NCBI RefSeq assembly: GCF_019974155.1
Contig: NZ_AP025158.1
Span: 930,001-994,000, forward strand
Direction: 5' to 3'
Length of the DNA stretch: 64,000 bases
Origin: Thermus thermophilus
GTDB lineage: Bacteria; Deinococcota; Deinococci; Deinococcales; Thermaceae
In this document: positions 47,642 through 54,931 of the stretch, one piece after another
How the letters are laid out: every line of letters begins with the position of its first letter
How positions within the stretch are numbered: the stretch's first letter is position 1
The notes under the pieces: generated by a model
Seen by the model: the letters and a program-made list of their open reading frames with translations, nothing else
Databases searched by the model: none
Told to the model about the DNA's origin: nothing
Position numbers and translations under genes: made by a program

Positions 47642-47975
47642 GGACGAGCCCCTGGTGGGGCACATGCTCCGCCGCTTTCTGGAGCGGGCAGGGCACGAGG
47701 TGGTCTGGGCCCCGAACGGGGAGGCGGGCCTTAGGCGCCTGGCCGAAGGGTTTGACCTCGTGGTCTGTGACCTCATCATGCCCGGGATTCCCGGGGAGGA
47801 GGTGATCCGCCGCATCCGGGAGGGGGCGGGACCGCCGGTCCTCGCCGTTTCGGCCAGCGTCTCCCAGGAAAGCCAGCGCCGGGCCCTCGAGGCCGGGGCC
47901 CAGGCCTTCCTGGGCAAGCCCTTTGAGGCCCAGGCCTTCTTGCGGGTGGTGGAGGGGCTTCTCCGGGGGGCATAG
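47619..47975 (+). CDS. Single-domain response regulator
   Basis: This 118-aa receiver domain has the acidic pair in VIEDEP, phosphoacceptor Asp51 in VVCDLIMPG, Ser in LAVSASVS (Thr/Ser position) and Lys in FLGKPFEAQ. There is no output domain. It starts inside the kinase gene and is its obvious partner; the output must be by protein contact. Confidence 0.92.
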   Translation: MARILVIEDEPLVGHMLRRFLERAGHEVVWAPNGEAGLRRLAEGFDLVVCDLIMPGIPGEEVIRRIREGAGPPVLAVSASVSQESQRRALEAGAQAFLGKPFEAQAFLRVVEGLLRGA

Positions 47976-48003
47976 GTCCCGAAGGCCTTGGTATAGGCTA
48001 GGG

Positions 48004-50424
48004 ATGATGCTGGGCCTCACTTCAGAGGAGGCGGGGAAAAGGCTTAGGGTCCACGGGCCAAACGCCTTGCCCGAGCGCCCTCCTCCGCCTTTTTGGCGCA
48101 AGGCCTTGCGCCAGCTTCAAAATCCGCTCGTCTACCTTCTGCTCTTTGCCTTCGTCCTGGAGTTTTTGCTCTGGTTCTACGAGGGAGGGCGGGGCGCGCC
48201 CCTAGAGGCCTTGGCCATCCTGGCCATCCTCCTTCTCAACGCGCTCCTCGGTGCCTTCCAGGAGAAGCGCTCCGAGGAGGCCTTGAAGCGTCTCAAGGCC
48301 TTGGCCGAGCCTTCCGTCTGGGTCTTGAGGGACGGAAGGTTTCAACGCCTTTCCGCCCGCGGGCTCGTCCCTGGGGACGTGGTGCGCCTCGAGGCCGGCG
48401 ACCGCGTCCCCGCAGACGGCGTCCTCCTGGAAGGGAGCGGCCTCTCGGTGGACGAGAGCGTCCTTACCGGGGAGAGCGTCCCCGTGGAGAAGGGGGTAGG
48501 GGAGGAGGTCTTCGCCGGCACCTTGGTGGTGCGGGGAAGGGCACTGATGGAAGTGAGGCGCACCGGCTTGAAAAGCGCCATGGGGCGCATCGCCCACCTC
48601 CTTGCGGGGATGGAGGAGGAGAGAACCCCCCTGGAAAAACGCCTGGAGGCCTTTGGCCGCCGGGTGGCCCGCTGGGTTTTCCTCCTCGCCTTCTTCCTTG
48701 CCTTCTTAGGCTTCCTGGTGGAGGGGTTTTCCGCCAAGGTGGTCCTCTTCGCCGTGGCCCTGGCGGTGGCGGCGGTGCCCGAGGGGCTTCCCGCGGTCCT
48801 CACCCTGGCCTTGGCCCTGGGGGTGGAAAGGATGGCCCGGCGGAAGGCGGTGGTGCGGCGCCTCTCGGCGGTGGAGGCCCTGGGAAGCGTCACCGTCATC
48901 GCCACCGACAAAACGGGCACCCTCACGGAGAACCGCATGGAGGTGGAGCGGGTGGTGGGGCCCGACCTCGAGGGGGCCCTCCTCGCCATGGTCCTCTGCA
49001 ACGACGCCGATCCCGCCACCGGGGCGGGGGATCCTCTGGAGCTCGGCCTCCTCCGCCACGCCCATGCGAGGGGCCTGGACGTGGAGGCGCTGAGAAAGGC
49101 CTACCCCCGCCTTTCCGAGCGCCCCTTTGACAGCGCTTGGAAGTTCATGCGGGTCACCACTTCTCTGGGGAGCTTCCTCAAGGGCGCCCCGGAGGCCCTT
49201 GTTCCCCGCCTGGACCTGTCCGAGGAGGAGAAGCGGCGGCTTCTCGGAGAGGCCGAGGCCCACGCCCGGGAGGGCTACCGGGTCTTGGCCTTGGCCTTCG
49301 GGGAGGGGGAGAGGGAAGAGGGGCTTCGTTTTCTGGGCTTTGTCCTCCTGCTGGACCCGCCCCGCCCCGAGGTGCCCGAAGCGGTGGAGCGGGTCCAGAG
49401 GGCGGGGGTGCGGGTGGTGATGGTCACCGGGGACCACCCGGCCACCGCCCTCGCCATCGCCCGGAGGGTGGGGATTCCGGCGAAGACCGTGGTCATAGGG
49501 GAAGAGATCGGGAAGCTTTCCGAGGAGGAGCTCCTGAAGGTGGACGTCTTCGCCCGGGTGAAGCCCGAGGACAAGCTTCGCATCGTGGAGGCGTTCCAGA
49601 GGGCTGGGGAAGTGGTGGCCATGACCGGGGACGGGGTGAACGACGCCCCGGCCCTCAAGCGGGCGGATGTGGGCGTGGCCATGGGGCAACGGGGCTCGGA
49701 CGTAGCCCGGGAGGTGGCGGACCTGGTGCTTCTGGACGACAACTTCGCCACCATCGTGGCCGCCATAGAGGAGGGGCGGAGCATCTACGAGAACATCCAG
49801 AAGTTCCTGCGCTTCCTCTTCTCCACCAACCTCTCCGAGGTCCTGGTGGTGGCCTTGGGGATGGTCTTCGCCGCCCTCTTGGGCCTCCGCGACGAGGCGG
49901 GGCACCTCCTCCTCCCCCTCACCGCCGTGCAGATCCTCTGGATCAACCTCATCACCGACGGGCTTCCCGCCCTAGCCCTGTCCTTGGACCGGAACCCCGG
50001 GGTCCTGGACCGCCCCCCCCGACCCAAGGAAAGCCCTCTCCTAGACGGGCTTTCTCTCCGCTTCGTCCTCCTCACCGGCACCCTCAAGGCGGGGGTCGCC
50101 CTGGGGCTTTTGGGGTTCCTTCCCGGGGCGGTGGGCCTCGAGGCCGCCCGGAGCGCCACCTTCCACTTCATGGCCATCGGCCAGCTCTTCTTCGCCTACG
50201 CCGCCCGGCATACCCACATCCGTCCTCTCCCCAACCCCTACCTGCACGGGGCCGTGGCCCTAGGGATTCTCGTGCAGCTCGTCCTGGGGACCCTGGGGCC
50301 TGGCCTCCTCGAGGCCGTCCCCTTACCTCCTTGGACCTGGGGCCTGGTGCTCTTCAGCGCCCTTTCGGCCTGGGGGCTGGCGGAGGCGGTGGACCGGGTA
50401 GTATGGCGAAAGGAGGCCAGATGA
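48004..50424 (+). CDS. P-type cation-transporting ATPase (P2/P3-like)
   Basis: This 806-aa pump has an N-terminal actuator ([15 protein letters not shown]), [22 protein letters not shown] in M4, the phosphorylation site [16 protein letters not shown] (Asp302), nucleotide-binding FLKGAPEAL, hinge [22 protein letters not shown], and [24 protein letters not shown] in the C-terminal helices. PEGLPA plus NLxTDxxPA resembles Ca2+/Na+-type pumps rather than heavy-metal ATPases, but the ion cannot be fixed. TATAGG six nt before the ATG suggests leaderless expression. The CBS gene overlaps its stop. Confidence 0.9.
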
Positions 50425-50762
50425 GGGAGGACATCAAGGTCAAAGACCTCATGACAAGCCCGGCGGTGGGCGTCCCCTTGGGGACCACCTTGGACCAGGT
50501 GGCGGCCTTGATGCTGGAAAAGCGCATCGGCAGCGTCCTGGTAGTGGACGAGAAGGGGAAGCTGGTGGGCATCGTGACCGAGAGCGATTTCCTCAACGGG
50601 CTTGGGGCTCCTCCGCGCCACCTCCCGGGCCACGCTCCCCAGGAGGAGGCGGTCCAGCCCCGTGCGCCCGTGGGTGCCCAGGACCACGAGGTCGTGCTTT
50701 TCCGCCTCCTTCAGGATGACCTCCGCCGCCAGGCCCTCCAGGAGGTGGGCCTCAAAGGCTAG
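50421..50762 (+). pseudogene. CBS-domain protein, 3' truncated and fused to antisense USP sequence
   Basis: [60 protein letters not shown] is one full CBS motif. At about 50592-50600 the frame crosses into the complement of the universal-stress-protein gene and continues as meaningless Arg/Pro/Gln-rich residues to 50762. CBS proteins need two motifs to form a Bateman module; the second is missing. Start ATG overlaps the ATPase stop and has AAAGGAGG upstream, so the N-terminal half is still expressed with the pump. It was presumably a regulator of, or co-expressed with, the transporter. Confidence 0.75.
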
Positions 50763-51008
50763 GCCCAGCTCCTCGGCCATGCGGGTGGCCCGGTTCAGGG
50801 CGGCAAGCCCCTCCTTGCGCAGGTCCTCCACCAGCTCCTGGTAGTAGGGGAGGGCTTCCGGGCCCAAAAGAAGCCTCGGCCCCAAGGGCTCCAGGGCGTA
50901 GAGGAAGGCCACCTTGGCCTTCAGGGCTTGGGCCAGGCGGAGGCCCTCCCGCACTCCCCTCTCCGCCGCCTCGCTTCCGTCCGTGGGCAGGAGGATGGAC
51001 CGATACAT
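50595..51008 (-). CDS. Universal stress protein (UspA family), 3' end altered by deletion
   Basis: MYRSILLPTDGSEAAERGVR, LVVLGTHGRTGLDRLLLGSV and AREVARRSPKPV form a complete USP domain with the ATP-binding G-x2-G-x9-G-S motif. The usual last few residues (KPVLVV-type) are replaced: from about 50595 the frame enters the complement of the CBS and ATPase genes and stays open to 50238, adding about 118 unnatural residues (total 256 aa). The fold may survive with a long tail. It starts 3 nt after the RNase J stop, as the last gene of rpsO-pnp-rnj. Confidence 0.75.
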
Positions 51009-51011
51009 CCC

Positions 51012-52733
51012 TCACCCCTCTATGACCACGGGCAGGATCATGGGGTCCCGGCCCGTGGCCTTCTTCAGGAACTTCTTCACCGGGTAGTAGATGTCGTCCC
51101 GGATGCGCTCCAGGGGCTTCTTTTCCCGCACCCCGTTTTTCAGGGCCTCGAGGGCCATGCGCCGGACCTCTCCCAAGAGCTTCTCCCCTGCCTTCACGAA
51201 CCCCCGGGAGACCACCTCCACCACGGGCTCCTCGTCCGCCAAGGCGGTGATCACCACCAGGCCCTCCTCGGCCATGTGGCGGCGGTCGGCCAGGATCTCC
51301 TCGGTGATGTCCCCCACCCCCAGGCCGTCCACGTAGAGGACCCCGTGGGGCACCTCCCCCGTCTTCTCAAAGGTCTCCCGGGTGAGGCGGTAAACGGCCC
51401 CGTTCTCCCCGATGAGGGTCTTCTCCGGGGGGCGGCTCATGGACTCGGCGAGCCACTTGAAGTTCACCTGGTGCCGCACCTCCCCGTGCCAGGGCAGGAA
51501 GAAGCGGGGGGTGGTGAGGTTGAGGATGAGCTTCAGCTCCTCCTGGGAGGCGTGGCCCGAGGCGTGGACCTTGTAGGTGGGGGGGTAGAGGACGTAGGCC
51601 CCCAGGGCGTAGAGGCGGTTGATGACCCGGTTCACCGCCTCCTCGTTCCCGGGGATGGGGCTTGAGGAGAGGATCACCGTGTCCCCGGGCTTGATGGCCA
51701 TCTTGGCGTGCCCCTCAAAGGCCAGGCGGTGGAGGACGGACATGGGCTGGCCCTGGCTCCCCGTGGCCAGGATGAGGACCTGGTGGTCGGGGAGGTCCTT
51801 CACCTCCTCCAGGGTGTAGAGGCGGTCCTTCACCTTGAGGTAGCCGAGCTCCAGGGCGATGCGGCTGAACTTGAGCATGCTCCGCCCCTCCATGGCCACC
51901 TTCCGCCCGTACTTCTCCGCCGCCCAGATCACGGACTGGATGCGGTGGATGTGGCTGGCGAAGGTGGTGACGAAGACCCGCCCCGGGGCGCGGCCGATGA
52001 CCCGGTCCAGCTCCTTGGCGATCTCCATCTCGCTTGGGGTGTAGCCGGGCCTTTCCGCGTTGGTGGCGTCGGCGATGAGGAGCAAAACCCCTTCCGCCCC
52101 CGCCTGGGCCACCTTGGCCAGGTGGGAGACCTTCCCGTCAATGGGGGTGGGGTCCAGCTTGAAGTCCCCCGTGTGGACGATGGTGCCGATGGGGGTGCGG
52201 ATCACCACCCCAGAGTTGTCGGGGATGGAGTGGGTCATGCGGAAGAGGTCCAGGGTGAAGTACCGCCCCACCTGGATGCGGTCGTCGGGGGAGATCTCCT
52301 TCAGGTTGAAGGCCCCGGGCCTCAGGCCGAACTCCTCCAGCTTCCCCCGTAGGAGCCCCAAGGTGAGCCTCGCCCCGTAGATGGGCACCGGGCTTTCCTT
52401 GCCGAAGATCATGGGAAGGAGGAAGGGCAGTCCCCCGATATGGTCCTCGTGCCCGTGGGTGAGGACCCAGGCCTTGATCTTGTGGCGGTTCTCTATGAGG
52501 TAGTCCACCCGGGGGATGAGGAGGTCCACCCCGGGCATCCCCTCCTCGGGGAAGGCGAGCCCTCCGTCCAGGACGAAGATCTCGTCCCGGAAGCGGAAAA
52601 CGGTGATGTTCTTGCCGATCTCCCCCATCCCCCCCAAGGGGATGATCTCCACGTAATCCTGGGGGCCGCCCTGGGACCCCTCCTGGGGCTTCCGCCGGCG
52701 CCTCCTCCTCGGCTTCCGTTCCTGGTTTTCCAT
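51012..52733 (-). CDS. rnj: Ribonuclease J
   Basis: This 573-aa metallo-beta-lactamase/beta-CASP nuclease has endo- and 5'-3' exoribonuclease activity. LTHGHEDHIGGLPF is the zinc motif, followed by RMTHSIPDNSGVVI, IVHTGDFKLD, the beta-CASP segments FVTTFASHIHRIQSV and MLILATGSQGQP-like VLILATGSQGQPMS, and SGHASQEELK (third metal site). A basic N-terminal tail (RKPRRRRRRK) precedes the domain. Length and sequence agree with T. thermophilus RNase J. It forms an operon with pnp and rpsO. Confidence 0.97.
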   Translation of the reverse strand: MENQERKPRRRRRRKPQEGSQGGPQDYVEIIPLGGMGEIGKNITVFRFRDEIFVLDGGLAFPEEGMPGVDLLIPRVDYLIENRHKIKAWVLTHGHEDHIGGLPFLLPMIFGKESPVPIYGARLTLGLLRGKLEEFGLRPGAFNLKEISPDDRIQVGRYFTLDLFRMTHSIPDNSGVVIRTPIGTIVHTGDFKLDPTPIDGKVSHLAKVAQAGAEGVLLLIADATNAERPGYTPSEMEIAKELDRVIGRAPGRVFVTTFASHIHRIQSVIWAAEKYGRKVAMEGRSMLKFSRIALELGYLKVKDRLYTLEEVKDLPDHQVLILATGSQGQPMSVLHRLAFEGHAKMAIKPGDTVILSSSPIPGNEEAVNRVINRLYALGAYVLYPPTYKVHASGHASQEELKLILNLTTPRFFLPWHGEVRHQVNFKWLAESMSRPPEKTLIGENGAVYRLTRETFEKTGEVPHGVLYVDGLGVGDITEEILADRRHMAEEGLVVITALADEEPVVEVVSRGFVKAGEKLLGEVRRMALEALKNGVREKKPLERIRDDIYYPVKKFLKKATGRDPMILPVVIEG

Positions 52734-52789
52734 ACGCCTCCCATCTTCCCGGCCTGGCCGGGACGCGCGTTAGGTCAGGCCCCCAGGGG

Positions 52790-54931
52790 TTACTTGCGCC
52801 GCCTGGGGGGGATCTTGCCTTCCAGCTCGGGGCGGATCAGGTCAATCTTGCCCCGCTCGTCAATGCGGTGGACCTTGACCTTGATCACGTCCCCCACCTT
52901 GAGGTGGTCCTCCACCCGCGTCACGCGGCCCGGGGCGATCTGGCTGATGTGGAGAAGCCCCTCGGTGCCGGGGAAGAGGCTGATGAAGGCGCCGAAGGGG
53001 GTGATGCGGGTGACGGTGCCCTCGTAGATCTCGCCCACCTTGGCCTCGCGGGTGAGGTCCTCTATGCGCTTCTTGGCCTCCAGGGCGGCCTCGAGGTCGC
53101 TGGAGTAGATGCGCACCGTCCCGTCCTCCTCAATGTCCACCTCCACCCCAAGCTCCTCCAGGGCGCGCACGTTCTTGCCCCCGGGGCCGATGACGAGGCC
53201 GATCTTCTCCACGGGCACCTTGAGGGAGAGGATCCTTGGGGCGAAGGGCTTGAGCTCGGGCCGGGGGGCGGGGAGGACGGTCTCCATCAGGTCCAGGATC
53301 TTGAGCCTGGCCTCCCGGGCCTGGAGGAGGGCCTCCTTCAGGACCTCGCGGGGAAGGCCCCCCACCTTGTTGTCCATCTGCAAGGCGGTGACCCCCTTGC
53401 GGGTCCCGGCCACCTTGAAGTCCATGTCGCCGAGGGCGTCCTCGAGGCCCAGGATGTCCGTGAGGATCACCGCCCGGTTCCCCTCCCACACCAAGCCCAT
53501 GGCCACCCCGGCCACCGGGGCCCGGATGGGCACCCCCGCGTCCATGAGGGCGAGGCAGCCGGCGCAGACCGTGGCCATAGAGCTAGAGCCGTTGGACTCC
53601 AGGACGTCCCCCACCACGCGGATGGTGTAGGGGAAGTCCTCCTCCTTGGGCATCACCGCCTTGAGGGCCCGCTTGGCCAGATTGCCGTGCCCCACCTCGC
53701 GGCGGGAGACCCCCCTTAGGCGCCGCACCTCCCCGGTGGAGAAGGGGGGAAAGTTGTAGTGGACGAGGAACTTCTCCGTCTCGTCTATGCCCAGGTCGTC
53801 CAGGATCTGCTCGTCCCGGCCCGTGCCCAGGGTGACGGTGCCCAGGACCTGGGTTTCGCCCCGGGTGAAGACGGCGGAGCCGTGGGCCCGGGGCAGGACG
53901 TCCACCTCAATCCAGATGGGCCTGAGGTCCTTAGGCCCGCGGCCGTCCGCCCGCTTGCCCTCCTCGAGGACGAGCCTTCTGAGCTCCCTGCGCACCACCT
54001 CGTCAAAGGCGCTCTTGTAGAGGGGCTTCTTGCCCTCGTCCGGGGTGCCGTCCTCCCCCTTGGGGAGGGCCTCGGCGATGAGGCGTTCGGCGAACTCCGA
54101 AAGGGCCCGGCTCCTTTCCCCCTTGCTCGCCGTCTGCAGGACCTGGGAAAGCCCCCGCTCCAGGGCAAGGCGGTAGAGGGCCTCCTTCTCCTCCTCGGGG
54201 AGGCTTTCCGGGGGGGTCCAGGCCATCTTGGGTTTGGCGAGTTCCCGGGCCATGGCCTCCTGGAGCTCCAGGATGGGCTGCATCTCCTTGTGGGCGAACT
54301 CCAGGGCCTGAACCAGGGTCTCCTCGTCCACCTCCCCGGCCTCCGCCTCCACCATGAGGATGGCCTCTTTGCTCCCCGCCACCACCAGGTCCAGCTGGCT
54401 TTCCTCCAGCTCCTGCAGGGTGGGGTTCAGGACGAAGCTCCCGCCGATGAGGCCCACCCGCACGGCGGCGATGGGGCCCTCCCAGGGGATGTCCGAGAGC
54501 ATGAGGGCGGCGCTCGCCGCGATGGGGCCCAGGATGTCCGGCGGGTTCTTCTGGTCGGCGGAGAGGACGGTGACGATGATCTGGACCTCGTGCCGGAACC
54601 CCTTGGGGAAGAGGGGCCGGATGGGGCGGTCCGTCATGCGGGCGGAGAGGATGGCCTTCTCCCCGGGACGCCCCTCCCGGCGCATGAAGCTCCCCGGGAT
54701 CTTCCCCACGGCGTAGTGCCGCTCCTCAAACTCCACCGTGAGGGGGAGAAAGTCGGCCTCCACCGGTGTCTCCGAGGCTTGGGCCGTCGCCAGGACCACG
54801 GTGTCGGCGTAGCGGACCAGGACGGACCCCGAGGCCTGTTTGGCGTACTTGCCCGTCTCCAGGACGAGGGGCCGCCCCGCCAGGGTGAGCTCGTAGCGGT
54901 GGGCTTGGGGGACATTGGATGTACCTTCCAT
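52790..54931 (-). CDS. pnp: Polyribonucleotide nucleotidyltransferase (PNPase)
   Basis: This 713-aa phosphorolytic 3'-5' exoribonuclease contains two RNase PH domains (first with [12 protein letters not shown]-like [18 protein letters not shown]; second with [13 protein letters not shown] and [17 protein letters not shown]), KH domain [30 protein letters not shown] and S1 domain [37 protein letters not shown] 54931 follows GAAGGAGCG; no earlier Met has support. Confidence 0.97.

Follow-up and report, generated by a model that had tools for sequence, protein, structure and literature searches.

Probable deletion scar between a CBS-domain gene and a universal stress protein gene in Thermus thermophilus, one of several losses at this locus in the genus

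Genes and overlapping frames at the locus

The window is a stretch of 64,000 nucleotides from Thermus thermophilus (contig NZ_AP025158.1, positions 930,001 to 994,000). Within it, two frames on opposite strands, one beginning as a CBS-domain gene and the other as a universal stress protein (USP) gene, overlap by 342 bp according to their ORF translations. The features of the locus are as follows.

48007..50424, + strand: intact P-type cation ATPase gene, the upstream neighbour (ORF 47923-50424, probable start at 48007)
50421-50762, + strand: CBS frame, an ORF of 113 aa
50421..50596, + strand: CBS gene remnant with the first CBS motif only (Pfam CBS at residues 7-60)
50596..50597: putative deletion junction, with one base (A at 50596) common to both sides, T. 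arciformis serving as proxy
50597..50762, + strand: CBS frame continued past the junction, antisense to the USP gene (ORF translation)
51008-50238, - strand: USP frame, an ORF of 256 aa
50597..51008, - strand: USP gene, residues 1-137, with codon 138 across the junction (Pfam Usp)
50238..50596, - strand: read-through continuation of the USP frame past the junction (about 119 codons, stop included), antisense to the CBS remnant and the ATPase end
51012..52733, - strand: intact gene, presumably RNase J-like, adjoining the USP start (comparison with 26 genomes)

The ATPase carries the Pfam domains E1-E2_ATPase and Cation_ATPase_C and is 82% identical to the T. igniterrae (G023) protein over residues 4-806. 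The gene on the other flank is presumably RNase J-like. Between them the sequence breaks at 50596/50597, where the CBS-domain gene on the + strand passes into the 3' end of the USP gene on the - strand. This position lies inside the interval, about 50592-50600, in which a preliminary description of this DNA had placed a common break point for the two frames. In a DNA search, T. arciformis (G012) matches the CBS side with 93% identity up to 50596 and the USP side with 97% identity from 50596, on a different contig, and alignment against this proxy reveals no inserted bases at the junction. Additionally, the USP frame extends beyond the CBS start and runs antisense to the end of the ATPase gene (50238-50424), a portion that was absent from the preliminary description.

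At the join, the codons of the two frames coincide exactly, position 1 lying on position 3. The frequency of stops in the antisense registers was taken from 52 gene-like ORFs of the window (18,840 codons), picked by codon-position GC. The register of the join contains 0.5% stops per codon and is open for at least 55 codons from 79% of positions and for at least 119 codons from 64%. In the other two antisense registers the corresponding shares are 27% and 21% for at least 55 codons, and 8% and 4% for at least 119. One in three random joins would be expected to fall in the nearly stop-free register. The long read-through in both directions is unremarkable because the joined register is nearly free of stops by composition. 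The previously proposed 342-bp antisense coding overlap is therefore supported as a pair of open frames rather than as coding sequence, since open antisense frames are expected from composition, and the overlap says nothing about function.

Intact arrangement in relatives and the missing segment

In T. igniterrae, the order of genes is ATPase, CBS gene, exchanger gene, convergent USP gene and RNase J. The CBS protein of this species has 154 aa with two CBS motifs (Pfam), the exchanger has 325 aa and belongs to the sodium/calcium exchanger family PF01699, and the USP has 146 aa with its own end intact. Missing from the window are the CBS gene beyond residue 58-59, the entire exchanger, and the last 8-9 USP residues, a piece that corresponds to about 1,267 bp in T. 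igniterrae and about 1,273 bp in G006 and G041. The deleted length is given from these more distant relatives because in T. arciformis the locus falls on two contigs and its exchanger carries an IS-like insert. The comparison with relatives that the preliminary description had called for thus yields, in intact genomes, both a CBS gene with two motifs and a USP that retains its native terminus. Its proposal of a deletion between convergent genes is upheld as regards the deletion; the CBS and USP genes were not convergent neighbours, because a whole exchanger gene stood between them.

The exchanger query has no match at E <= 1 in the two contigs of the own genome (G000); the same query matches 22 of the 26 other Thermus genomes. 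CBS and USP paralogues are present elsewhere in the own genome, as found with the full CBS gene and the USP, and the best USP paralogue is 47% identical over residues 1-143 of 146. No near plasmid source of the exchanger was found in the plasmid collection searched, in which all 97 records lie below 60% identity.

Searches with the window DNA covered 41 genomes (the own genome and 24 other Thermus among them) and then 27 Thermus genomes. The USP-side match starts at window position 50595-50618 in 25 of the 26 other Thermus genomes, and in G002 the USP was not found within the stretch fetched. None of these 26 genomes has the joined CBS-USP arrangement, and CBS-side matches, where present, are separate pieces. 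An ancestral overlap, which the preliminary description had named as the outcome that would overturn its reading, is accordingly rejected. A junction-spanning pattern, searched with up to 2 mismatches allowed, occurs exactly in the own genome only, near matches elsewhere being other sites, and the exact junction was not found in viral contigs. CBS-side matches in 4 of 19 genomes (G006, G020, G022, G023) reach 50631, 35 bp beyond the junction and overlapping the USP match. Likeness past 50596 is poor in an alignment of the window with G012, G018, G022 and G023, and these extensions are read as probable chance similarity of GC-rich DNA.

Remnants of the CBS and USP genes

Bateman-type CBS proteins contain paired CBS motifs in tandem. 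The window frame has a single Pfam motif and the intact relatives have two, which bears out the earlier statement that the CBS frame loses its second motif. The remnant is most likely dead. Relative to T. arciformis it carries 3 non-synonymous and 3 synonymous changes (dN/dS 0.29).

The Usp domain of the window protein (Pfam PF00582) occupies residues 1-138 and profile positions 1-137 of 141 (E 1.7e-28), a near-full length, and the protein is 96% identical to that of T. arciformis over the latter's residues 1-139. The ATP-binding motif of USPs, as given in an excerpt of PMC3673472, is G-2X-G-9X-G-(S/T). The window translation GTHGRTGLDRLLLGS fits this pattern, and G114, G124 and S125 are invariant in an alignment of 16 USPs. 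The native hydrophobic last strand is missing, homology stopping at residue 138 of 146; according to PMC3673472, a strongly hydrophobic last strand contributes to the dimer interface in the majority of USPs with a known structure. The earlier claim that the USP loses its last strand holds for the end of homology, but an AlphaFold model of the chimera predicts a replacement strand at 138-142, formed by the read-through residues V-E-E-I-A, at the same positions as in an intact control. In this low-depth modelling (alignments of 16 and 15 rows, the chimera being guided by 15 intact USPs), mean pLDDT is 92-97 in residues 1-40, 93-98 in 61-110 and 91 in 131-140, falls to 64 in residues 141-150, and lies mostly below 50 beyond residue 158, where the tail is predicted to be disordered. 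The USP core may still fold, because a read-through strand is predicted in place of the lost one, and the two glutamates in that strand would make a normal USP dimer doubtful.

Between the own genome and T. arciformis, the USP core has accumulated 12 changes, 4 non-synonymous and 8 synonymous (dN/dS 0.18); for comparison, dN/dS is 0.27 in the ATPase, 0.17 in RNase J and 0.16 in rpoB. The rpoB value against T. parvatiensis (G021) was left out on account of a frame break in the gene of that genome. Against an assumed neutral share of 0.75, the binomial value for the USP core is 0.003, which covers the whole path between the two genomes and is not taken as evidence of present function. The USP ratio fits constraint rather than decay, and neither remnant shows decay, but most of this divergence may be older than the deletion. 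For that reason, and because the changes are too few, dN/dS was rejected as a test of present function. With its nucleotide-binding core kept, the USP may be either a recent pseudogene or partly working.

Recurrent loss across Thermus

The counts over 26 genomes include the own genome, and G042 was set aside (65% complete, with a contig end inside the exchanger). Of the 26, 16 have the exchanger as a nearly complete open frame, and in 10 it is broken or absent (G000, G002, G003, G004, G010, G012, G013, G014, G022, G024). In 11/26 the CBS gene is either broken or was not found, namely in the genomes of the exchanger-loss set without G012, together with G005 and G015. In only three genomes is the USP truncated, missing or aligned in part: G000, G002 and G015 (aligned only from residue 35). 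Its homology falls short of residue 143 in the own genome alone among the 26. All 26 gave a match to the RNase J-like gene, often covering only the portion inside the stretch fetched.

The scars differ. Exchanger relics were recovered by search in G004, G010, G022 and G024, and scraps of the CBS start and the exchanger end were read by eye in G003, G004, G010 and G014. In G024 the ATPase end adjoins exchanger residue 241, and in G013 the gap between the ATPase and USP alignments is about 30 bp. The T. arciformis exchanger is split over two contigs (L031:1-285, L032:1-352) by an IS-like insert, the ORF of which has helix-turn-helix matches in Pfam. On an rpoB tree of the 26 genomes, in which 10 of 22 inner branches are starred, the exchanger state requires a minimum of 6 changes and the CBS state 8. 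Scoring T. parvatiensis, with its empty native site, as a loss lowers the exchanger figure to 5. These changes may include regains. Shuffled labels give a mean of 8.2 changes, and 35-40 of 500 shuffles are as low as observed, so the exchanger losses are not clearly clustered. The CBS-exchanger pair has been lost several times in Thermus, and the window deletion is one instance. The lost exchanger and its repeated loss in the genus are the larger fact, which lay outside the view of the preliminary description.

Origin of the scar and alternative explanations

The own genome groups with T. parvatiensis (rpoB 97.5% identical, support 100/100). Identity of the window to T. arciformis is 82-90% over 48200-49600 (ATPase), 90-96% over 49600-50400, 92-98% over 50400-52400 (CBS, USP and most of RNase J), and 76% at 52600-52800. 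This pattern suggests that the locus at 47800-53000 is a mosaic from recombination between lineages, and the parent of the deletion can therefore only be approximated by a proxy.

The scar was very probably made by a deletion of about 1.27 kb, one of several losses, after which the cut frames ran into each other's complement. Such a deletion, presumably a single step with loss of function, would have taken the 3' 60% of the CBS gene and the entire gene of the Na+/Ca2+ exchanger family, and would have shortened the convergent USP gene by its last 8-9 codons. Each truncated frame would then read through the complement of the other to the next stop. Judged from the proxy parent, the broken ends would have been united by illegitimate joining rather than by repeat recombination, because the two sides have at most 1 bp in common; a repeat-mediated deletion is rejected on the same observation. 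Several successive deletions could have left the same scar. An IS-mediated deletion was also considered on account of the IS-like insert within the T. arciformis exchanger; with nothing inserted at the window junction, it is no more than a possible route.

The junction is read from the assembly, and the locus may be in a mixed, polyploid state. An assembler could also have passed over the exchanger and linked the CBS gene straight to the USP gene, and the T. arciformis assembly does break in the same interval, at the IS-like insert. An artefact of this kind is nevertheless very improbable: the own genome is in two contigs, the exchanger has no match anywhere in it although the query works in 22 others, and relic-bearing scars occupy the same place in other Thermus genomes. 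Among the matches listed, this stretch resembles other parts of the own genome only over short lengths and with no more than 84% identity, so no long repeat was seen that might mislead an assembler. The open frames over 342 bp might instead suggest an old antisense gene pair kept by selection. This explanation has next to no probability, given that no conserved arrangement appears in the 26 other Thermus genomes, that the register is nearly stop-free by composition, and that conserved parts are missing from both proteins.

The deletion may still have left a product that works. In a functional chimeric USP, V-E-E-I-A would replace the last strand and the antisense-derived tail would be tolerated or used. 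The preserved core and the strand at 138-142 in the AlphaFold model, together with the few non-synonymous changes in the core, are consistent with this possibility. It is unlikely on balance, as the model leans on 15 intact USPs and loses confidence from residue 141 onwards, two glutamates enter a strand that is normally hydrophobic at the dimer interface (excerpt of PMC3673472), and the genome contains other USP-like genes, the best of which is the 47% identical paralogue noted above. Less likely again, and distinctly improbable, is a new protein made in one step, a USP with a terminal strand and a tail of well over 100 residues from the antisense of the CBS and ATPase genes. If this were true, deletions between convergent genes in GC-rich, antisense-open genomes would be a general source of long new C-termini.

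Comparison with known systems and significance

Pseudogene formation by deletion is an ordinary process in bacteria. The window resembles such cases in its sharp break, its missing gene, and the relics and differing scars of its relatives. It departs from them in that the same gene pair was hit in several Thermus species and in that the deletion extends into a convergent neighbour. The scar has the look of ordinary gene decay, slightly unusual in its outcome, at a position from which the same genes have gone in related species. A stop-codon-mutation model for convergent overlapping genes is tested in PMC2174442. As in that model, the convergent frames of the window lost their ends and each runs to the next stop; in the notation of that paper their phase is 123:321. 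The window differs in that more than a stop codon went: the deletion took conserved parts of both proteins together with an entire third gene, and there is no sign that both products are kept. A literature search found no published description of the locus, which is no proof of its absence from print, and the main text of the T. parvatiensis genome paper (PMC5529391) mentions neither antiporter, exchanger, universal stress nor CBS domain.

Taken alone, a single genome-specific scar carries little weight. For annotation it calls for caution, as automated gene prediction may yield a USP of 256 aa or a CBS protein of 113 aa with antisense read-through ends. The recurrence of CBS-exchanger loss beside a P-type ATPase is more useful than the single scar: because the pair is broken or absent in 10-11 of the 26 genomes while the RNase J-like gene is matched in all 26, the dispensability of the exchanger becomes testable.

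Possible mobility of the unit within the genus

The native site of T. parvatiensis (L204:3944-4104) contains only scraps of the ATPase region, between RNase J and the end of a gene that we take to be response-regulator-like. A complete ATPase-CBS-exchanger-USP unit is located at 1.41 Mb in this genome (L205:5665-10338), about 0.5 Mb from the native site. A degenerate RNase J scrap lies beside the unit, and its exchanger is 97% identical to that of T. igniterrae. To judge from these sequences, the unit appears to move between Thermus genomes.

Full-length exchangers form two groups, 51-54% or 85-100% identical to the T. igniterrae protein. One group comprises G001, G005, G007-G009, G011, G015 and G017-G019, and the other G006, G016, G020, G021, G023 and G041. 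This split departs from the rpoB tree (G007 versus G006/G041), which suggests gene replacement at the locus.
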